58,227 bases of DNA from Myxococcales bacterium (GTDB lineage Bacteria; Myxococcota_A; Polyangia; GCA-2747355). A program made the translations under genes and the position numbers. How positions within the stretch are numbered: the first letter of the stretch is position 1; the number at the start of each line of letters is the position of its first letter. The notes under the pieces were generated by a model. The model had not been told where the DNA came from and searched no databases. It saw only the letters and a program-made list of their open reading frames with translations. The DNA lies in contig JAGQIK010000216.1 in NCBI GenBank assembly GCA_020431405.1, positions 1 to 58,227 on the forward strand. Reading direction: 5' to 3'. Positions 11,239 to 37,375 of the stretch are shown here, in pieces.

Positions 11239-11242
<4 letters not shown>
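9689..11242 (-). CDS. gltD: Glutamate synthase (NADPH) small subunit
   Basis: 517 residues. The protein feeds electrons from NADPH to the large subunit for reductive synthesis of two glutamates from 2-oxoglutarate and glutamine. The N-terminal Fe-S region has cysteines C58, C61, C66 and C70 (CMDCGVPFCHQGC) and a second CPAPCEGAC cluster. The FAD-binding GSGPAGLAAAAQL fingerprint follows near residue 173, then a DRAGGLLRYGIPDFKL block and an NADP-binding GGGDTGSDC motif, all diagnostic of GltD. The gene overlaps the gltB stop by 4 bases (ATGA), so the two are translationally coupled. An odd Gly/Ser-rich head (SGGGNGSGSGSGNG) precedes the usual start region and may be a spacer or an over-long start. 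Confidence 0.96.
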
Positions 11243-15843
<4,601 letters not shown>

Positions 15844-23471: not shown

Positions 23472-25328
23472 CTAACGTGTCATGCGGCGATAAGACGCGA
23501 CGACCAGCGCGCCCTGGCCGACGTCTACGTTGATGAAGCTCAGCGTGTTGGCCGCGACGTTGTAGAGCACGCCCTTTTGTCGGCTGCGCGGGATGCGCAC
23601 GCCGTTGACCTCGACGATCAGCGACGCGCTCACCGGCCGCTCGCGCAGCTTGCGCGGTGAAGCCGCGGCGATGATGCTCTCGATGATCAGGTCGAGGGTG
23701 GCGCCGAGGTTGGCCTGGCAGACGTCGCCGACCTGCCCGCCGAAGCGCTGCGCCAGCGCCTGGTAGCCGTAGGCAACCTCGGCCTTGCACGCGTTCTTGC
23801 AAGTGCCGCCGATGACGTGCACCGCCGTGCGCGCTTGCGGATCGTCGCGCCCCGAGAACAGGTCGAACCACGGCTTGAGGTAGGCCTCCGTCTTGGCCTC
23901 GAGGTCAAAGGGCAGCGAGCAGCTGGTGCTGCGGTAGTCGCTGTAGCGCAAGAAGCCCGGCACGTCGTTGTAGCTGGCGCCTTGTTTGAGCTCTTGCGGC
24001 GCCTCGTCAGTGACGATGATGAGCACCAGCTCGGCGCCCGCGCGCACCTTCGTCGGGTCGTTGACCGCGCGCGGCAGGTGCCGCTTGACGGCGTGGTAGG
24101 CGTGCGCGAGGCCGTATTCGGCGCCGCCTTCGAAGTACGGCGGGTTGGAGATGCAGGCGCTGAAGGTGCTCTGCTCGTCGGCGCCGAGGAAGCGGTCTTG
24201 GCCGCCGTCGTCCTGCGGATCGCTCGAGATGTTCGAGCAGAACTTGCCCAGCACAGCGCCCTTGCTCGGGTTCTTCATGCCGGCGACGCCCATGCGGAAG
24301 TCGAGCCCGGCGGCCTTGGCCTTGGCGAAGAAGCGATTGGCGTTGTTGACGATGTCGGCGCGGTTGTCGTTCATCGAGCCCGACTCGTCGACGACGAAGA
24401 TGATGTCGGCCATCGCGCTGCCACGCGCCTGCGCCACGTCGCAGACGCGCTCGGTGCGCAGGCCCGCCACGCCGAGCGCGCTGCCGCCGCCGAGATCATC
24501 GACGCGCGTGCCGACGGTCGAGGTCACGTCGTCGTAGGCGCGCGCCGTGGCCACCGCGAGGCTGACGGCGATCTGATCGCCAGGGCGCAGCACCACGGTG
24601 AGCTTGGCGACAAACGACTCGCTCTGCTCGACGCCGGACGGCGCTGTCGGCATGTTGCTCAGCTGATGCGGCTGCACGGCGAGCACGGCCGCCAGGAGGT
24701 GGCTGCGCATGCCCCAGGCGCTCAGCCGCGAATTGCCGTTGATGTGCCAGACGGCGGCTTTGACGTCGGGGAAGCCGTCGGCCGAGGTGCCGCTGGTGCC
24801 CGAGCCGCGTACGGTGAGCGCCTCGCTGCCGATGCCTTCGCGGGCGAAGTAGTCGGCGGCGCGCTGCTGCAGCTGCGTCAGCACGTCGCGCGGATCCGAG
24901 ATCTTGTCCGGCTCGGCGACCGGCGCCGTGAGCGCGGCGGCGGCGACCTCGCCGTCGTCGGCGACGAGCACCGAGGTCAGCGGCTGATCACCCGGCACGC
25001 CGATGGCGCGCACCTTGACGATGTCGCGCGTGACGAAGGTCATTGTGCCGCGCGGATCGCGGTGCACGGTGGTCGCGATCTCGTCGGCCGGACACCCCGC
25101 ATCGCTCGGTCCATCAGGGATCACGATCGGCCCGTCGACGGCGGCGTCGGGGTCGGCGCGGCTGTCGCTGGCCGGCACCGGGAAGCGGTTGTCGCAGGCC
25201 GCGAAGACGACGATCAGCGTGACGAGCGCGAGGCGAAAGAGCGCGAGCAGTGCAGGACGAGTGATTGTGTTTGGGGTGCGAGCGTGTGGGGCGATAGGAG
25301 TAACTCTGTCGGTGGCTGGATGTTTCAA
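23472..25328 (-). CDS. VWA-domain lipoprotein
   Basis: 618 residues from a TTG that has GGAGG seven bases upstream. An upstream ATG at 25433 would put about 80 residues before the lipobox and is less likely. A hydrophobic stretch (ALLALFRLALVTLIVVFAAC) gives lipobox FAAC. The von Willebrand A domain has the MIDAS motif DESGS at D314 within ADIIFVVDESGSMNDNRAD and a later LVLIIVTDEAPQ strand. The C-terminal ~90 residues (LDLIIESIIAAASPRKLRERPVSASLIVEV) form a separate beta domain. It is probably a surface metal-dependent adhesin or binding protein. The promoter region is shared with the divergent 2054-residue protein gene. Confidence 0.85.
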   Translation of the reverse strand: MKHPATDRVTPIAPHARTPNTITRPALLALFRLALVTLIVVFAACDNRFPVPASDSRADPDAAVDGPIVIPDGPSDAGCPADEIATTVHRDPRGTMTFVTRDIVKVRAIGVPGDQPLTSVLVADDGEVAAAALTAPVAEPDKISDPRDVLTQLQQRAADYFAREGIGSEALTVRGSGTSGTSADGFPDVKAAVWHINGNSRLSAWGMRSHLLAAVLAVQPHQLSNMPTAPSGVEQSESFVAKLTVVLRPGDQIAVSLAVATARAYDDVTSTVGTRVDDLGGGSALGVAGLRTERVCDVAQARGSAMADIIFVVDESGSMNDNRADIVNNANRFFAKAKAAGLDFRMGVAGMKNPSKGAVLGKFCSNISSDPQDDGGQDRFLGADEQSTFSACISNPPYFEGGAEYGLAHAYHAVKRHLPRAVNDPTKVRAGAELVLIIVTDEAPQELKQGASYNDVPGFLRYSDYRSTSCSLPFDLEAKTEAYLKPWFDLFSGRDDPQARTAVHVIGGTCKNACKAEVAYGYQALAQRFGGQVGDVCQANLGATLDLIIESIIAAASPRKLRERPVSASLIVEVNGVRIPRSRQKGVLYNVAANTLSFINVDVGQGALVVASYRRMTR

Positions 25329-25335
25329 GCCACGG

Positions 25336-25340
25336 CCTCC
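25336..25340 (-). promoter_or_regulatory. GGAGG ribosome site supporting the TTG start of the VWA lipoprotein
   Basis: On the minus strand GGAGG is followed by seven bases (CCGTGGC) and then TTG at 25328. This spacing is ideal and outweighs the longer ATG start, which would create an unusually long pre-lipobox region. Confidence 0.65.
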
Positions 25341-25480
25341 AGACGTTTCCGAGCTGTGCTGCTGCTGCTGCCCGAGCAGTATAGCGTGGTGCGCCGAGCG
25401 AAGGCCCGTGATAATAGCGTCCGCTCGACACAACCGCGCGATCCCGCGCGGCGCGTTGTCGAAGACACAGGGAAAACGAC

Positions 25481-28400
25481 GTGGAACAGGTATCGGCGCT
25501 TACCGAGCGTATTCGCAGCCTCAAGGCCGTAGCCGCCTCGATGCACGAGGGTGCGATCCACACCGAGCTGATCCCCGAGATCGACAAGATCCTCGCGCTG
25601 CCCGACTCGCTTGCCAACCGCACGGTCGGCGAGCTCGAGGCGATCAGCCGCCAGCTGCGCGAGTACGAGCAGGTCTTCGACGCCATGGGCTACACGCTGC
25701 TCGAGCAGCTGATGCCCACCACCGGCGTGTCGCCGGTCTTTCGTGTGGTGCAGGCGGCCGACCGCTTCCGCCAGCGCTCGCGCCGCGCGGTGGGCCGCTC
25801 GGTCGAGCTACCGGGCGCCGCCGAAGGCGACGAGCCGCGAGCCGTCGAGATCGACCAGCGCGCCTTCCGCGCGCTCAACCGCTACAGCCTCTCCATCGGC
25901 ACGCCACCGGTGACGGCCAATATGCGCGAGCTCGTCTCGCGCACGCTGTTCGGTCGCGAGGTGCGCGAGCTGTTCGACTACCTCGAGGTGCTCGACTGCA
26001 ACCGCGCCGATCTCGCGGATCTGTTGGTGCTGCTGATCCAGCTGGTGGACTCGAGCATGCACTACTGCACCGCCGCCGAGGAGCGGCGCTTCCTCGACGA
26101 CGCCACCGAGTTCGTCAACTTCGAGGGCGGCCGGCTGTTCAACCGCGTGGTGGTCACCGAGAGCCCCGAGCGCGTGATCTTTCTCATCTCGCGCTACGTC
26201 TTCGACAAGTTCGGCACGCAGGCGCCGCCGGTGCGCCTCGTCGAAGGCGTCGACGAGCTCAACGACACGACGATTCGGCGCATGCGCGCCGAGCCCAACC
26301 ACGTCTTCGTCGTGCGCGTCACGCGCATCCCGCACGGGCTGTTTCAGCAGCGCAGCGGCGAGAGCCCGTGGCACGGCGTGCTCGGCCGGCTGATCCTGAT
26401 CGACTGCTCGGCGCGCGCGCGCCGCTCCAACACGACCATCGTCTACACGCTCTTTCCGCACGTGGCGCGCACGCTGCGCAACATCCAGACGAGCTTTGCC
26501 GGCCGCCCCGCCAACACGCAGTTGGTGCTGCGGCGCGTGCTCGAGCGCTTCACCGCCGAAGACCTCGACCACATCGGCGAGGCCGTGGCGCGGCGCCTGC
26601 GGCGGCTCGAGATCGACGGCGCGCTGTCGGCGTCGGTCGACGACATCCGCGCCAAGGAGTGGACGCGCACCAACGTGCGCGACTACCTCACGCTGGCCAA
26701 GCTCGAGCGCATGGTGCGCTTTTTGGCGCGCACGGCCGCCGGCGCCGACCGCGCCGCCGTCGACCAGCGCGACCGCGCGGCCGAGGCGACCCCCGAAGGC
26801 AGCGCCACGCAAGCGCTCAAGCGGCGCGTCGCCGAGCGCTGGATGCGCTACTTCTACAGCGGCCTGACGCCCGATCGCTACGGCGCCACGGTGGTGCCGG
26901 GCGGCGGCCGCGGCGCGCTGACGCTCGTCGGCGAATATCACCGCGAGTGCACGCAGCGGCTGACGCGCGAGTTTCGCGAGCACAAGCTCGCCGCCTGCCG
27001 CGCGCGGCTCGCCGAGCTCAAAGCGGGGCTCGAGATCCCCGACGCCTCCACCGACGAGATCGAGGCCGGCATCCGCCAGTCACAGCTGCGCGCGCTGGCG
27101 CCTTCGCAGTGGCGCACCGACGGGGACGCCAAGCTCACCGATCACCTGGCGCGCACGATGGTTTATCGCGCCGCCGATGCGGCGAGCAAGATCGCCGGCC
27201 GCACGCGCCATGGCCTCGACCGCGCCGCCTTCGGCAACGTCACCGGCGGCGCCGCGGCGCTGCTCAAGCGCGCCATGAAGAACACCGGCTTCGGCGCGCT
27301 TCACGGGCGGCTCGAAGACGTGGTCGGAAAGCGCGTGGGCGAGATCGATCGCCGCGTGCGCGACGCGCTGGCGCCCGTGCAAGAGGCGGTGCGCTCGGCC
27401 GAGCGCTCGCTGTCGGACATCAAGGGCGGGCTCGATCCGATCGCCGTCAGCGAGGTCGAGGCCGTGCTCAACCTCGTCGAGCAGGACCACTTCTACCCGA
27501 CGCTGATCCTGCCGGCGCTGTCGTGGACCTACCACGACGTCTTTCCGGAGAAGGACTATCCGCCGCAGGCCGTGCTGCGCGTCGATCTCACCGACGAGCT
27601 CGAGATGAACCCGCTGTCGCTCGAGCGGCGCCTCGAGCAGCTGCGCTATCTGTTCCGGCCGTTCCCCGAGATCTTCGAGCTCTACTGCCGCAGCATGCTC
27701 GTGGTGCTCAACACGCCGCACAACCCCACCGGCGTGGTCTATCGGCGCGAGACGATGCTCAAGCTGCTCGCCATCGCCAGCGAGTACGGGCTGACCATCG
27801 TCGACGACAACGCCTACCACAAGCTGCTGACGTCGGACGTCAAGGCGCGCGAAGGCGACCGCTGCGTGGCGCAGGTCTTCGAGACCTACCGCCAGCGCTT
27901 CAGCAAGCCGGTGCGATTGATCACGGTCGGCGCGACGACCAAGGGCCTGCAGGGCGCCGGCGATCGCACGGGCTTTGTCTGCTCGAGCGATCCGGCCGTC
28001 GTCGAGTTCGTCGAGGGACGCGCGTCGCGGCCGCACGAGCTTTCGCTCTACCTGACCGAGCTCAAGCTGGAGAGCGGCATCGCCGTCAAGCACTACACTG
28101 GCGAGATCGAAGAGCTCGCCGCGGCGCTGCTCGATCCCACCGGCGCGATGGAGCCGTGGTCACGCGTGCGCGAGCTGCTCTCGAGCTCGCTGGCCAAGCT
28201 CGCCGATCCGGACTTTCCGGTGGCGGTCTTCGAGACGCTGCTCGCCGGCTACGAGCGGCTGCTGCGGCTCAAGAACCGCGGCGCGCTGCAGCTGACACTC
28301 TCGTCGGCGGCCAGCGATCTGGTCGAGGACCTCAAGCAGCTGCGCATCGAGCGCAACCTGCGCAAGGATGTCGGCAAGCGCCTGCAGCAGGCCAAGCTGG

Positions 28401-31400
28401 CCGTGATGCGCGCTGACCCCGAGGCCAAGTACATCGAGCCCGGCGGCGCGTTCTATATGTGCGTCTCGCTGCCCGGCGCCGCCGAGGACGAGCGCGGGAT
28501 CCAAGCCTTCCTCGAGGCGGTGGCCGCCGCGCGCGGCGTCGACTACGTCTACGCCGGCTTCGGCTACGTACGCCTCTCTCTGGGTGGCGAGATCAGCGGC
28601 AACCGCCAGAGCTACGACCGTCTCGGCAACGCCGTCGAGACCTACACGCGCGTGCTCTTGCGCTACTGGAACGCCTACGCGGCGAGCGGGCGCGACGTGG
28701 CCGCCCTCGAGACGATCTTCGAAGACGACGGCGAGCGCGGCTGGCTGCAGAACAGCGTGCGCGATCTGGAGCCGCTGATCACCGCGGCGCCACCGGCCAA
28801 ACGGCCGACACAGGGCGGCATGGCGACCGTCATCGCCGACAGCGAGCGCGGCTTGGTCTACTGCATCGAGGAAGGCCGCTCGGTGGCCGACAAGGTGCAT
28901 ATCGAGACCGACAAGGCCTGCGAAAACGTCGACGAGCTGGTCGGCAGCCGCGCCTTCCGTGCGATCTACCGGCGCCTGTTGCGCAAGACCTACAGCGCCG
29001 ACGTCAGGCTCAGCGATCTATCGTTCGAGCAGGTCGAAAACCAGTACGGCCCACTGGCCTGCCGCACCGCCTATCACGACCGCAAGCTCATCGACGACGT
29101 CTTCCGCGACGTGCTGCTGCGCATCTATCGCGCCTGGCACGGCGCCAACACGGTCAAGGTGCTCTCGGCGCAGCTGCAGTCGGCCTCCTACGCCGAAAAG
29201 ACGTCGGCGCTGCGCGGCATCAACCGCAAGATCAACGAGCTGCTCAACGAGCTGCTCTTCGCCTTCGGCGTCGAGACCAAGAAGGTCACGGCGACGAGCA
29301 CCTTCGAGGTCGGCTACGAGCGGCTGCTGAACATCACACCGCACCCGCAGCTGCCCGAGTACCTGCAGCGCATCATCTCCGGCTGCGCCTTCGCCGGCGC
29401 CACGACGGAGCTCGATCCGACGCCCAACTGCACCACCGGCGCGGCCAAGCGCGTCGGCGACACGCGCTACGGCTTCATCCGCCGCGAGAGCGGGCTCGAT
29501 CTGAGCACGGGCGAAGGCGAGGTCGCCGCCGAGGCCGCCGCCGCCAAGCGCGAGCTCGGCGCGCGCGAGGCGCCGCCGCTGGCCTACTTCCAGCGCCGCT
29601 TCGCCGAGCTGCCCGTGCTGGCGCCGCTTCGCGACTACGTCTGCAAGGCGGTGCAGGTCGGGCCGTTCAAGATGCTGCTGCTGATGCACAAGTCGTACTT
29701 CCACCTGATCTCGGACGAGCTGAGGCTCTTCCCGCAGATCGAGGAGGTGCAGCTGCGCGAAAACCTCGAGCAGCTCGCTTGGGACGGCGTGCTTCTGTTC
29801 GGCGTGCCGGCCAAGCTGATGGGCGAGAGCTACAAGAGCGGCTACGTGCACGACCGCTACGGCGACGGCGCGATCCTGCCCACGGCGTGGGTCGCACGCG
29901 AGGACGCCACCGACTACGTCGGCTTCGTCAAGAAGTCGCTGCTGACGCTGCACAACGAGCGCGTCAAGGCGATGGGCGGCTTCCCGGTGCACGGCGCGAT
30001 GATCACCATCACGTTCAAGAACGGCCTGCGCAAGACGCTGGTCTTCTCGGCCGACAGCGGCACCGGCAAGAGCGAGACGATCACCGCGATGATGGAGCAG
30101 ATGATCTCGGGCGGAAAGCTCGCCGCCGAGCTCGACCGCGTCGACATCCTCGCCGGTGACATGCTGTCGCTATGGCGCGGCGAGGACGCGCAGATCTACG
30201 CCTTCGGCACCGAGACGGGCGACTTCATGCGCCTGACCGACATCACCGAGACGTGGCAGCGCCAGTTCGCAGACCTTCTGCAGCGCGGCAGCTACTCCAA
30301 CCTCGACCACCCGAAAAACCCGCGCGTGACGGTGCCCGGCATCTGCGAGCGCAAGCGCGTGCTCTCGCCGACGCGCGTCAACGGCTTCTTCTACATCAAC
30401 AACTACGAGGCGGCGCACGGCGCGCTGTCGGTGGAGCTGATCGAAGACCCCGGCCAGGTGCTGCGGCACGTGCTGGTGCGCGGCTTGCGCAAGAACAAGG
30501 GCACCAGCGGCGACCAGCCGAGCCTGCGCGCGGGCCTCGAGTTCGCCGGCGAGTCGGCGCTCGTCACGCGCTATCGCTACGACCTCGACACGCTGCTCGC
30601 CTGGGAGACGCTCGACATCGACGGCAAGGAGCGCACGTGTCTGGCCTATCGCGACGGCACCGAGGACGTCTACGCCGCGCGCGAGCTGGTCGGCCACGCG
30701 TTTCGTGGCAAGCGCGTCAAAGTCGACGGCGGCGAGCACACGATCCAGGGCGTCGAGTATGACGTGGGGCGCAACATCTTCCGCGTGGTGGTCGGCGGCC
30801 GCCGGCCCGTGCTCGATCGCGAGATCTACGACCAGGTCTACGAGCCGCTGGTCTCGACGTTCTGCGGCAACCCGTTTGTCGATCCCGAGGGCATGGACCG
30901 CACGCTGAGCATCTTCGCCGAGGCGATGCGCGAGGCGCGCGTTCACACCGGCGTGATCAAGACGCAGCTGGCGCGCCCCGGCTACGAGTTCACCGGCCCG
31001 GCCAAGGCGGCGTCCGACATCGTCGACTTTCTCAAGGAGGACGAGGAGGTCAACGCGCGCTTCCAGCGCAACAAGGACAAGGTGCAGCGCGGCATGCGCA
31101 AGAGCTACGGCGAGGTCATCGAGGCCGGCACCAACCCGCCGGTAGAGCTCGAGGGCTACAACCTGCTGTTGCTCGAGGAGCACGAGTCGACACACGTGCA
31201 GTTCCAGTCGCACCGCCGCGGCATCAGCCCCAACAGCGCCGACGACGACCTCGGCGACGACGTGCGCCTCTTCTCGGTGCCAACGCCGTACTTCCAGTAT
31301 CAGCCTGTCGCCGACAGCGCCGAGGAGCGCGGCCGCTACCGGCCGGCGATCGCGCTGCCCGAGCACATCCAGACCATCGTCGACGTGTGCGCCAACCCCG

Positions 31401-31645
31401 ACTACGACATGCCGCTCGAGGGGCTGTCGGTAGACGTCGGCGACTACGCGCGCATCGGCAGCTGGAACAGCATCGAGGAGCTGACCTACCAGGTGCTGCT
31501 GGTCAACGGCGTGATCACGCTCGGCTCGTCCGAGACCGAGCTGGCGCGCTTCCCCTTCGAGGTGCGCAAGGCGCGTCACATCGCCGAGCAGATCGTGCAG
31601 CGGCGCGAGACGTCGCGCCCCGAGCTGAGGGTCTCGAGTGGCTAG
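25481..31645 (+). CDS. Giant fusion: unknown N-terminal region, PLP aminotransferase fold, PEPCK/HprK-like P-loop domain
   Basis: 2054 residues from a GTG preceded by an AGGGAAAA-type site. Residues 1-650 are helical and unrecognised. Residues ~690-1080 are a fold-type I aminotransferase: HNPTG at 747-751, DDNAY at 775-779 (Asp and Tyr for the PLP ring), and GATTKGLQGAGDRTG with the Schiff-base lysine K821 and phosphate-binding Arg. Residues ~1100-1500 are unrecognised. The C-terminal third has a P-loop SGTGKSET (K1530) embedded in TLVFSADSGTGKSE and a following DILAGDML (D1555, D1560), the arrangement of kinase-1 and kinase-2 motifs in phosphoenolpyruvate carboxykinase and HPr kinase. No signal peptide or membrane segment. 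The next gene overlaps its 3' end by 8 bases. Substrates are unknown. Confidence 0.85.
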   Translation: MEQVSALTERIRSLKAVAASMHEGAIHTELIPEIDKILALPDSLANRTVGELEAISRQLREYEQVFDAMGYTLLEQLMPTTGVSPVFRVVQAADRFRQRSRRAVGRSVELPGAAEGDEPRAVEIDQRAFRALNRYSLSIGTPPVTANMRELVSRTLFGREVRELFDYLEVLDCNRADLADLLVLLIQLVDSSMHYCTAAEERRFLDDATEFVNFEGGRLFNRVVVTESPERVIFLISRYVFDKFGTQAPPVRLVEGVDELNDTTIRRMRAEPNHVFVVRVTRIPHGLFQQRSGESPWHGVLGRLILIDCSARARRSNTTIVYTLFPHVARTLRNIQTSFAGRPANTQLVLRRVLERFTAEDLDHIGEAVARRLRRLEIDGALSASVDDIRAKEWTRTNVRDYLTLAKLERMVRFLARTAAGADRAAVDQRDRAAEATPEGSATQALKRRVAERWMRYFYSGLTPDRYGATVVPGGGRGALTLVGEYHRECTQRLTREFREHKLAACRARLAELKAGLEIPDASTDEIEAGIRQSQLRALAPSQWRTDGDAKLTDHLARTMVYRAADAASKIAGRTRHGLDRAAFGNVTGGAAALLKRAMKNTGFGALHGRLEDVVGKRVGEIDRRVRDALAPVQEAVRSAERSLSDIKGGLDPIAVSEVEAVLNLVEQDHFYPTLILPALSWTYHDVFPEKDYPPQAVLRVDLTDELEMNPLSLERRLEQLRYLFRPFPEIFELYCRSMLVVLNTPHNPTGVVYRRETMLKLLAIASEYGLTIVDDNAYHKLLTSDVKAREGDRCVAQVFETYRQRFSKPVRLITVGATTKGLQGAGDRTGFVCSSDPAVVEFVEGRASRPHELSLYLTELKLESGIAVKHYTGEIEELAAALLDPTGAMEPWSRVRELLSSSLAKLADPDFPVAVFETLLAGYERLLRLKNRGALQLTLSSAASDLVEDLKQLRIERNLRKDVGKRLQQAKLAVMRADPEAKYIEPGGAFYMCVSLPGAAEDERGIQAFLEAVAAARGVDYVYAGFGYVRLSLGGEISGNRQSYDRLGNAVETYTRVLLRYWNAYAASGRDVAALETIFEDDGERGWLQNSVRDLEPLITAAPPAKRPTQGGMATVIADSERGLVYCIEEGRSVADKVHIETDKACENVDELVGSRAFRAIYRRLLRKTYSADVRLSDLSFEQVENQYGPLACRTAYHDRKLIDDVFRDVLLRIYRAWHGANTVKVLSAQLQSASYAEKTSALRGINRKINELLNELLFAFGVETKKVTATSTFEVGYERLLNITPHPQLPEYLQRIISGCAFAGATTELDPTPNCTTGAAKRVGDTRYGFIRRESGLDLSTGEGEVAAEAAAAKRELGAREAPPLAYFQRRFAELPVLAPLRDYVCKAVQVGPFKMLLLMHKSYFHLISDELRLFPQIEEVQLRENLEQLAWDGVLLFGVPAKLMGESYKSGYVHDRYGDGAILPTAWVAREDATDYVGFVKKSLLTLHNERVKAMGGFPVHGAMITITFKNGLRKTLVFSADSGTGKSETITAMMEQMISGGKLAAELDRVDILAGDMLSLWRGEDAQIYAFGTETGDFMRLTDITETWQRQFADLLQRGSYSNLDHPKNPRVTVPGICERKRVLSPTRVNGFFYINNYEAAHGALSVELIEDPGQVLRHVLVRGLRKNKGTSGDQPSLRAGLEFAGESALVTRYRYDLDTLLAWETLDIDGKERTCLAYRDGTEDVYAARELVGHAFRGKRVKVDGGEHTIQGVEYDVGRNIFRVVVGGRRPVLDREIYDQVYEPLVSTFCGNPFVDPEGMDRTLSIFAEAMREARVHTGVIKTQLARPGYEFTGPAKAASDIVDFLKEDEEVNARFQRNKDKVQRGMRKSYGEVIEAGTNPPVELEGYNLLLLEEHESTHVQFQSHRRGISPNSADDDLGDDVRLFSVPTPYFQYQPVADSAEERGRYRPAIALPEHIQTIVDVCANPDYDMPLEGLSVDVGDYARIGSWNSIEELTYQVLLVNGVITLGSSETELARFPFEVRKARHIAEQIVQRRETSRPELRVSSG

Positions 31646-32360
31646 AGTGGCTAGCGCGCTCGCGGCCATCATGGCGCTCGCGACACTGGCCAGCGCCACG
31701 GCCGAGGCGCGTTCCGCGACGGTGACCAGCGGTCCCTTCACCTTCACGCTGCCGCCCGGCTGGCGCGACGTCTCGCCGGGCGTGCCGGCGGCCAAGCTCG
31801 CCGATATCCCCGCGGCGCTCGTCGAGCGCGCACGCCGCTCGCGCTCTGCGATGATCGCCTTCGATCTGGCGGGCGCCAACGACGGCTTCGTCGAAAACGT
31901 CAACGCGCGTATCGCGCGCTGTCCCGCCGAGCTGACCGAAGCGTCGGTCAAGGGCATCAGCGCCAATCTCGCCAAGCGGCTGCGAGGCCAGGCGGGCGGA
32001 GCGCGGGTCGTGCCGCTGAAGGCGGGGGTGACGACCATCGGCGGCGTGCGCTGCGGGCGTGTCGTGCAGGACCTCGATCTCGGCACGGTGCGCGCGCGGC
32101 AGCTGGTCTACTACATGCCGGCGGGCAAGCAGTGCGCCGTCGTCACCTATTCGGCAGGGCGCGAGGCGTTCGCGCGCTACCGGCCGATCTTCGAAGCGTC
32201 GGCGAACGCCACGCGTGGTCTTCGCGCGCCCGAGCAGCGCGGCTTCTGGTCGCGCATCCTGCACTCGGCCGGACGCGGGGCGCTCATCGGCGGCATCGCC
32301 GGTGGGCTGGCCGTGCTGCTAGCGGGGCTCTTCGTGTGGGTGCGACGGCGCAAGCGCTGA
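31638..32360 (+). CDS. Exported single-pass membrane protein coupled to the giant gene
   Basis: 240 residues overlapping the end of the 2054-residue gene by 8 bases. The N terminus MARVASALAAIMALATLASATAEA is a signal peptide. Residues ~30-190 form an exported domain starting VTSGPFTFTLPPGWRDVSPG, a PsbP/Mog1-like opening often seen in small periplasmic beta proteins. It ends with one transmembrane helix (ALIGGIAGGLAVLLAGLFVWV) and a basic RRRKR tail, giving an outside domain and a short cytoplasmic end. Only two cysteines are visible in the domain, at positions that could pair. The coupling suggests a functional link to the giant enzyme although the two lie in different compartments. Confidence 0.75.
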   Translation: MARVASALAAIMALATLASATAEARSATVTSGPFTFTLPPGWRDVSPGVPAAKLADIPAALVERARRSRSAMIAFDLAGANDGFVENVNARIARCPAELTEASVKGISANLAKRLRGQAGGARVVPLKAGVTTIGGVRCGRVVQDLDLGTVRARQLVYYMPAGKQCAVVTYSAGREAFARYRPIFEASANATRGLRAPEQRGFWSRILHSAGRGALIGGIAGGLAVLLAGLFVWVRRRKR

Positions 32361-35067: not shown

Positions 35068-35255
35068 GACGGAACCGCTGTCACCAGTAGATTTGAGCCA
35101 ACGTGGCGCAAAGGCAGCGTAGCGCGCCAACCCCTCTCTCAACATGCTGTAACGACGCGAGGATTTGTCTCCAGCGGAGCTGGCCCGCGCGCTGCAACGC
35201 CAGCGTGCACGACGCCAACGACCAACGCTCGCAATGTCGCGGGCGATGGCGCGTC

Positions 35256-35265
35256 GAGGGGAGAG
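35256..35265 (+). promoter_or_regulatory. GAGGGGAGAG ribosome site deciding the GTG start of the dockerin lipoprotein
   Basis: This purine-rich site lies seven bases before GTG at 35273. That start leaves a standard lipoprotein signal, whereas the upstream ATGs at 35234 and 35246 have no such site. Confidence 0.6.
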
Positions 35266-35272
35266 ACGCGAC

Positions 35273-37375
35273 GTGCTCCAACGAACCGCTGCGGCCTGCA
35301 CCGCCTGGTTGTTCGTCCTAACTCTGCTCGCCCCCGCGGGCTGCGGCGTCGAGGCGGATGAGCCCGGCCTACGATGGTCTCAGAGCCAGGGCAGCGGCAG
35401 TGGCAGCGGCAGCGGCGACGCGGGCAGCGACGCGACGTCGCCTGTCGGCCAGCCGATGACTGTTCGCGGTACGGTGCAGTCGGTCACGAGCAGCGGCGCG
35501 CGCACCATCGTGTGGCTGCACCCGATGGCCGGACCGTTCGCGGGCGCCAACGGCCGCGCACAGCTGGTGCTCGGCAGCGAGACGCCGCTCGAGGGCGGCG
35601 CGCTGTCGGTAGGCGACAAGGTGTGGGCCAGTGGCACGCTGCATCGCATGGCTGGCGCGGACAGTGACAGCCCCACCGTGCGGCTCTATCCGGTCAGCGC
35701 GGTGTATCGCCAGCTGACCTACTCGGCCTGCACGGCAGACTTCAATCACGACGGCAAGGTCGACCAAGCCGATGCCCTGCTGCTCGAGGCCAACCTCGGC
35801 TGCACGCAGTGCGGCAACTCGGCGGGCGATCTCGACCGCGACGGCGACGTCGATCTCGCCGACGCGACGCGCTTCGGCGCCGAGCTGGGCAAGCGCTGCT
35901 GGCCTTCGACGTTCGCCTCCACGCGGCTCGTACAGGGCGACGTCAATGGCGACGGAAAGGTCGACGACGACGACCGCTTCTGGCTGCGCGCCGTGCTGAC
36001 CTCGGTCGACGTGCCTGGCAGCGCGCTGCTGGCGGCGGACGTCGACCAGGACGGCAGCATCAGCATGGCCGACTACGCCGCGCTCGAGCTGCGACTGCAG
36101 CAGGGCGCGGCGGCCGCCAGCAACAACAACGGCGCCGCCGCTGACAGCAACGACAGCGACAGCAACGCCAAGAAGCCGCCGCGTCCCGACGTCTCGATGC
36201 ACATCGCCACGCGCCCCGAAAGCTCCGCCTTCTCGGTCGACGTCGACTGGACCTACGTCGGTGACGCCGATCGTGACGACCGCTGGGCTCAGGTCACCAT
36301 CAAGCCGGTGTTCGACACGGTCGACGGTTCGCGCCCCGCGCCGGAGGTCTATCCCAAGATGTTCGGCATGCGCGACCAGTGCCGCACCCCCGACGGAAGC
36401 GCAGCAACGCGCATCTATCGGCCGCACTGGGCCGCCGACTCGACCTACGTCGAGGTGGAGGTTCAGCTCAGCGAGGGGCTGCAGTTCTTCTTCCGCCCGG
36501 CGAGCTACGCTTACGGCAACGACGTCGACGAGCAACGCTCCAAAGAGCACAATCGCCGCGCCTGGGGCGGCTGCAACTGGGTCTTCAACGACACGCGCGC
36601 GTGGTGTCGCGCCAAGTGGTCCGACCTGTGCGGCACGCTCAGCACGCCCGTACGCTCGACGCACCTCTACTACAGGGTGCTGTACGACTCGAAGCAATGG
36701 CCTGCCACCGGCTTTTCGTGGCTCGCAGCCGGCAACCACCCGCCCAAGCCCGTGACCTGCGATGGCGTGGCCAAGAACGTCGAACACTGCTGCTTTGGTC
36801 TGTACGGCGACGTCGACCCCGACGATCCCTGCAGCGACAAGGGGCACGTTGGATGCACGTTTGACCTCGGCTGCTACTGGAGCGACGGCAAGTGCAGGCC
36901 GAGCACACGCGCCAACATTCGCGCTTGGCTGCCGCGCGACTGCACGCGCGAGGTGCTCTCCCACGTCAAGGAGTTCAACCCGCTCGACTACTCGTGGTTC
37001 AACGAGTGCGACAAGGTCTCGGTCGTCTACGTCGGCCACGGGCTGGGGCCAAGCGGCCTGGCCAGCAAGGCGCACCGCGTATGTACCAACCTCGGCGAGC
37101 AGTGCTCGGCGGTCAGCGTGCGCGATCGCGGCTGCAAGACGTTCGAAGACGCGGACAAAGCGATGAGCGCCGCACGAGACCTCGCGCAGTCACTCAAAGA
37201 CAGCGGCAGACACCCCAAGCTCGACGTTCGCCTGACGGCCAACACCTGGTACTCGCTGGGCTCGCCGTTTCACGACGTCGACTACATCCTCCACGGGCTG
37301 TCGCAGACCAAAAGGCACCTCGACATCGAGATCCGCGAGGACAGCGACTGCCCGACCTGCACGTTCCAGGACTGA
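35273..37375 (+). CDS. Lipoprotein with four dockerin-like calcium repeats
   Basis: 700 residues from the GTG supported by a strong ribosome site. MLQRTAAACTAWLFVLTLLAPAGC is a lipoprotein signal with lipobox PAGC. A Gly/Ser linker is followed by an OB-like segment (MTVRGTVQSVTSSGARTIVW). Four dockerin/EF-hand loops come next: DFNHDGKVDQADALLLEA, DLDRDGDVDLADATRFGA, DVNGDGKVDDDDRFWLRA and DVDQDGSISMADYAALEL, in positions ~145-280. The C-terminal ~400 residues are Cys-rich, with blocks such as CCFGLYGDVDPDDPCSDKG and FDLGCYWSDGKC, and belong to no family I recognise. Calcium-dependent folding or docking at the cell surface is likely; the partner is unknown. Confidence 0.82.
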   Translation: MLQRTAAACTAWLFVLTLLAPAGCGVEADEPGLRWSQSQGSGSGSGSGDAGSDATSPVGQPMTVRGTVQSVTSSGARTIVWLHPMAGPFAGANGRAQLVLGSETPLEGGALSVGDKVWASGTLHRMAGADSDSPTVRLYPVSAVYRQLTYSACTADFNHDGKVDQADALLLEANLGCTQCGNSAGDLDRDGDVDLADATRFGAELGKRCWPSTFASTRLVQGDVNGDGKVDDDDRFWLRAVLTSVDVPGSALLAADVDQDGSISMADYAALELRLQQGAAAASNNNGAAADSNDSDSNAKKPPRPDVSMHIATRPESSAFSVDVDWTYVGDADRDDRWAQVTIKPVFDTVDGSRPAPEVYPKMFGMRDQCRTPDGSAATRIYRPHWAADSTYVEVEVQLSEGLQFFFRPASYAYGNDVDEQRSKEHNRRAWGGCNWVFNDTRAWCRAKWSDLCGTLSTPVRSTHLYYRVLYDSKQWPATGFSWLAAGNHPPKPVTCDGVAKNVEHCCFGLYGDVDPDDPCSDKGHVGCTFDLGCYWSDGKCRPSTRANIRAWLPRDCTREVLSHVKEFNPLDYSWFNECDKVSVVYVGHGLGPSGLASKAHRVCTNLGEQCSAVSVRDRGCKTFEDADKAMSAARDLAQSLKDSGRHPKLDVRLTANTWYSLGSPFHDVDYILHGLSQTKRHLDIEIREDSDCPTCTFQD

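Follow-up and report, generated by a model that had tools for sequence, protein, structure and literature searches.

Aspartate aminotransferases (AspATs) and phosphoenolpyruvate carboxykinases (PEPCKs) are linked by a single metabolite, oxaloacetate, which is the product of the former and the substrate of the latter, and gene fusions often record functional links. The closest described systems for the protein analysed here are the subgroup Ib AspATs, with structures from Thermus thermophilus (1bkg, 1gc3) and Thermotoga (1o4s), and the ATP-dependent PEPCKs (PF01293; Thermus structure 1j3b). PPi-dependent PEPCK is unrelated to the ATP- and GTP-dependent enzymes (review, PMC8100219). Within a 58,227-nucleotide stretch of Myxococcales DNA (hereafter the window), one gene encodes a chain in which a domain resembling the first group is followed by a module resembling the second. 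We found no paper on an aminotransferase–PEPCK-like fusion, and the protein combines known superfamilies in a new architecture, undescribed in the literature searched.

The fusion gene is an uninterrupted frame of 2054 open codons with a GTG start on the + strand (25481-31645; all features of the gene below are given as window positions on this strand), in a 70% GC window from an 11.2 Mb genome. GC content by codon position (0.68/0.44/0.94) follows a coding-frame pattern, and in every relative the start lines up with MEQV. The preliminary description of this DNA reported the 2054-residue frame and a set of motifs, all of which we recovered where it had placed them: HNPTG (residues 747-751), DDNAY (775-779), K821, SGTGKSET (1526-1533, with K1530) and DILAGDML (1555-1562). 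In the six full-length sequences compared, residues N748, D776, Y779, K821, R829, R1031, K1484, K1485, H1504, K1530, D1560 and R1615 never vary, and, judged by this conservation, the motifs of both domains are not chance resemblances. Between two copies from two species of one genus, dN/dS is 0.04-0.33 in every segment except an insertion at residues 1691-1785, demonstrating purifying selection on both halves of the protein. The frame is a real gene.

Full-length homologues are encoded in six other genomes (G003, G001 (= L023), G226, G456, G457 and G491), where the fusion is kept as a single chain of about 1970-2054 residues with 55-65% identity along its length. One relative of the same family is catalogued as a Deltaproteobacteria MAG, a name that NCBI now assigns to Myxococcota. 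In an eighth carrier, G470, the fusion lies in two pieces on two contigs, as would be expected if it were two separate proteins or an artefact of assembly or frame. However, the G470 break falls at a contig end, and the gene is one uninterrupted frame in seven genomes including that of the window; in every relative uncut by a contig edge the two halves are one protein. We therefore rejected two separate proteins, and an artefact, already refuted by the sequence data, has a negligible probability. Distribution of the fusion is patchy, with 8 carriers, the window's genome included, out of about 318 genomes. Across some 310 genomes belonging to the class, a query with the N-terminal 430 residues and a query with the C-terminal third recovered the same eight carriers, the latter also returning one stand-alone relative (G030). 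Residues 1-430 were never found alone in this set and occur only within the fusion, demonstrating constant co-occurrence of the N-terminal domain with the fused C-terminal module. Searches of viruses, phages and plasmids returned only one stand-alone Limosilactobacillus gene.

The neighbourhoods of the carriers contain no conserved neighbour or operon pointing to any pathway, and no biosynthetic cluster was recognisable among the neighbours examined. In the window, the fusion gene is flanked divergently by a gene for a 653-residue lipoprotein-like protein that weakly matches VWA (23472-25433, - strand), and a homologue (L035 16124-17893, 53% identity) likewise adjoins the fusion gene divergently in G003. 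This is the sole shared neighbour, limited to these two genomes and found beside the fusion in none of the other carriers, and is uninformative. A downstream gene (31638-32360, + strand) overlaps the fusion stop by 8 bases. Its 240-residue product has an apparent signal peptide and a C-terminal membrane helix, and is not conserved beside the fusion gene elsewhere. The window also encodes a 736-residue protein (35165-37375, + strand) that combines FG-GAP repeats with a dockerin type I domain (E 1.7e-12), which is unusual outside cellulosome bacteria, and a 1534-residue open reading frame with strong coding bias (11239-15843, - strand).

Two long insertions interrupt the class I/II fold-type I PLP domain, which spans residues ~440-1070. 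The Pfam family PF00155 matches residues 739-848 (E 1.5e-11, 44.5 bits against a curated cut-off of 19.7), and L004 and L005 match it too. With phmmer, residues 982-1048 are additionally matched as the small domain, in the correct order. Segment 1 (residues 440-500; 26798-26980) contains PGGGRGAL with R477 and is followed by insertion 1 (501-665; 26981-27475), which is absent from the aminotransferase profile and, from low-confidence predicted helices, is probably helical. Segment 2 (666-870; 27476-28090) holds the PF00155 match with N748, D776, Y779, K821 and R829, and insertion 2 (871-971; 28091-28393), delimited by profile alignment, separates it from the small-domain segment 3 (972-1070; 28394-28690), which includes GAFY and VRLSLGG with R1031 and supplies the second phmmer stretch, to positions 312-378 of Thermus AspAT. 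When residues 501-665 and 869-971 are cut out, the domain aligns nearly full length with ordinary aminotransferases of related genomes (HHalign E 3e-17; reversed-profile control E 0.006), and among solved structures Thermus AspATs come closest (E 8.5e-11), with Thermotoga aspartate aminotransferase also among the nearest. The mid-chain PLP domain of the preliminary description is borne out by the above-cut-off PF00155 match and the invariant PLP residues; the two interrupting insertions had been overlooked.

The complete PLP-binding set is invariant in the six sequences, comprising the catalytic lysine K821 (codon 27941-27943, in the motif ATTKxLxGxGDRTG), D776 to the pyridine nitrogen, N748 and Y779 to O3′, the phosphate arginine R829 and the α-carboxylate arginine R1031. 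R477 is equally invariant and occupies the position of the acidic-substrate lysine of Thermus AspAT (GG[K]QAL), a suggestive correspondence at a position, GG[K/R]xAL, that is not unique to aspartate enzymes. The best NCBIfam match of the PLP part, far below cut-off, is GntC, an arginine-derivative cyclodehydratase. Judging from its closest structures and residues, the domain may act on an acidic amino acid, with aspartate the likeliest.

The PEPCK-like module (residues 1120-1880; 28838-31120) is most conserved in its catalytic core (1386-1690; 29636-30550; 72-82% identity), which aligns with canonical PEPCK by HHalign. Direct profile comparison of the module with canonical ATP-PEPCK gives E 1.5e-5 and a score of 53.3, compared with a best E of 9.8e-4 and a best score of 38.9 in 100 column shuffles, and an indirect path leads from the module to stand-alone relatives (L006, L027 and L024; E 3.7e-37) and from those relatives to canonical PEPCK (E 1.1e-9). 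By these profile comparisons, with significant similarity across the nucleotide-binding core, the module belongs to the PEPCK superfamily (PEPCK/HprK fold) and not to an unrelated P-loop family. The separate PEPCK/HprK-like domain assigned earlier towards the C terminus thus stands, and its extent of ~750 residues and its stand-alone relatives are additions to that account, which had missed both. The module stays below cut-off with every Pfam and NCBIfam PEPCK model: the fusion protein (P0001) has no Pfam PF01293 match, L005 reaches 9.0 bits against a PF01293 cut-off of 26.5, and no HprK model appears among the Pfam and NCBIfam matches. Filing the protein as a member of the ATP-PEPCK or HprK family was rejected on these curated cut-offs.

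Residues DYVGFVKKSLLTLHNERVKAMGGFPVHGAM of the module align ungapped with canonical PEPCK, and likewise with Thermus PEPCK 1j3b, so Y1479, K1484, K1485 and H1504 of the YxGxxKK(x18)H block (29915-29992) correspond to PEPCK Y207, K212, K213 and H232, in E. coli numbering. Profile and relatives' alignments locate the P-loop SGTGKS at residues 1526-1531 (30056-30073), followed by D1560, the kinase-2 aspartate equivalent to D269 (30158-30160), and R1615 in KNPRV (30323-30325), which is placed near TxNTR and is a plausible R333 equivalent. R1324 (29450-29452) is a tentative counterpart of the oxaloacetate-binding R65, placed by a low-confidence transitive alignment via L051. K1530, D1560, R1615 and R1324 are invariant in all ten aligned sequences. 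The module keeps the metal, nucleotide and CO2/oxaloacetate residues Y207, K212, K213, H232, K254 and D269 of PEPCK, with the metal ligands K213, H232 and D269 as K1485, H1504 and D1560 beside the P-loop, and among oxaloacetate ligands Y1479 is the clear one. One of two kinase-2 aspartates is replaced (GDM versus DDE). An insertion at residues 1691-1785 (30551-30835), absent from the stand-alone relatives, is probably a small beta-rich piece (local pLDDT about 60-75) and is under relaxed selection, with dN/dS of about 1 in the two congeneric copies.

Stand-alone relatives of the module are 569-675 residues long (L006, L027 and a Limosilactobacillus plasmid protein) and give weak PEPCK matches. 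We found no functional study of them in the literature and recognised no aminotransferase among the neighbours of their genes that we checked. A Limosilactobacillus fermentum plasmid gene (L024 3317-5026, CP033373.1) is annotated as PEP carboxykinase; its product is divergent and below the Pfam PEPCK cut-off, and that it is a true PEPCK is doubtful. Related genomes contain frames of 607-1252 residues (L051-L054) with two stretches of similarity to PEPCK_ATP, at E about 1e-30 to 1e-35; these form a PEPCK-like family intermediate between canonical PEPCK and the fusion's module.

The P-loop of the stand-alone relatives reads GDSGAGKSE, followed by DDM, which is nearer the HPr-kinase form than PEPCK SGTGKTT. 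This raises the possibility that the module phosphorylates some other small molecule, or a protein as HprK does, with the PLP domain making or modifying its substrate, for example in a pathway of specialised metabolism encoded by these large genomes. The patchy distribution and the GntC match would fit such a kinase, as would an ordinary PEPCK elsewhere in at least five of the eight carriers (an ATP-dependent one in the window's genome and GTP-dependent ones in four more). This last observation also counts against a PEP-forming two-site enzyme, and the fusion is consequently not the sole PEPCK in those genomes. Further points against such an enzyme are the sub-threshold PEPCK model scores, the tentative placing of R65, the replaced kinase-2 aspartate, the non-unique GG[K/R]xAL position, the GntC match, the HprK-like P-loop of the stand-alone relatives, the lack of a conserved neighbour pointing to a pathway and the poor structure models. 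Retention of K213 and H232, both metal ligands, and of Y207 as invariant residues is instead a PEPCK feature, and no biosynthetic cluster was recognisable in the neighbourhoods examined; we consider such a kinase somewhat unlikely.

Large parts of the chain lie outside both domains. The N-terminal domain (residues 1-430; 25481-26770; 57-64% identity to five relatives) contains the conserved blocks LSIGTPP and RARxSNxTxxxTLFPHVAxTLRNxQxxxxGRPANTQ and has no match in Pfam, NCBIfam or PDB. Neither it, nor the C-terminal extension (1881-2054; 31121-31642), nor the three insertions matched a library entry or solved structure among those searched, in agreement with the ~1000 unrecognised residues of the preliminary description. 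AlphaFold models of the two halves have mean pLDDT of 37 and 31 and are too poor for use, probably because only two aligned sequences were supplied. Defence-system and phage libraries gave only generic matches to the P-loop or aminotransferase region. MocR regulators use aminotransferase folds as sensors, and with ~1000 residues lacking catalytic relatives and no conserved operon, the PLP and ATP domains might read amino-acid and energy state and act through the large N-terminal domain. Against a sensor or scaffold, Pfam and NCBIfam searches revealed no DNA-binding or signalling domain, and all catalytic residues checked are invariant in both domains, which exceeds the needs of sensing. The preliminary description suggested either linked transamination and phosphorylation or a sensor; the conservation of both active sites favours an enzyme, short of proof, and sensing is distinctly improbable.

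As far as comparison of the sequences goes, the locus is established as one gene with two catalytic-type domains, invariant active-site residues in both and constant co-occurrence of its parts; activity at both sites, the choice of substrates, which way the flux runs and any channelling are what we infer. Because the AspAT and PEPCK families meet at oxaloacetate, a point overlooked in the preliminary description even as both its domain assignments hold, we favour a two-site enzyme. We tentatively propose that the single chain could convert an acidic amino acid through an oxo-acid to PEP or a related phosphorylated product. The PLP domain would deaminate the amino acid, most likely aspartate to oxaloacetate, the PEPCK-like domain with ATP and a divalent metal would convert oxaloacetate to PEP or a closely related phosphorylated product, and the N-terminal domain and insertions would probably tether the sites to each other or modulate their activity. 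The fullest form of this proposal, in which aspartate becomes PEP on one polypeptide, unstable oxaloacetate passes between the sites and the 430-residue domain is a new scaffold, is unlikely. By joining an oxaloacetate-making to an oxaloacetate-using family, the fusion makes it possible to ask directly whether amino-group transfer and the PEP–oxaloacetate step can share one chain. It is also a starting point for working out what an uncharacterised PEPCK-like family does in Bacillota and in the phylum of the window, and its conserved 430-residue domain is without known relative.

Among known proteins, DUF4914 (PF16260) is weakly linked, below cut-off, to one stand-alone relative and does not match the fusion protein itself. 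Stand-alone PEPCK-like proteins (for example AYP99509.1 from Limosilactobacillus fermentum plasmid CP033373, L006 and L027) match the whole length of the module at 24-27% identity, whereas they are unfused and lack the 95-residue insertion and the C-terminal extension. Subgroup Ib AspATs share with the fusion the fold-type I core, all PLP contacts, the α-carboxylate arginine and a basic residue at the acidic-substrate position; by contrast, the fusion has insertions of ~165 and ~100 residues, is distant in identity and is fused at both ends. Compared with ATP-PEPCK, the fusion falls below every curated cut-off, differs in its N-terminal half, carries the 95-residue insertion, lacks one kinase-2 aspartate and is joined to a PLP enzyme, yet it preserves, in unchanged order, the YxGxxKK...H block, P-loop, kinase-2 aspartate and, plausibly, an equivalent of R333.
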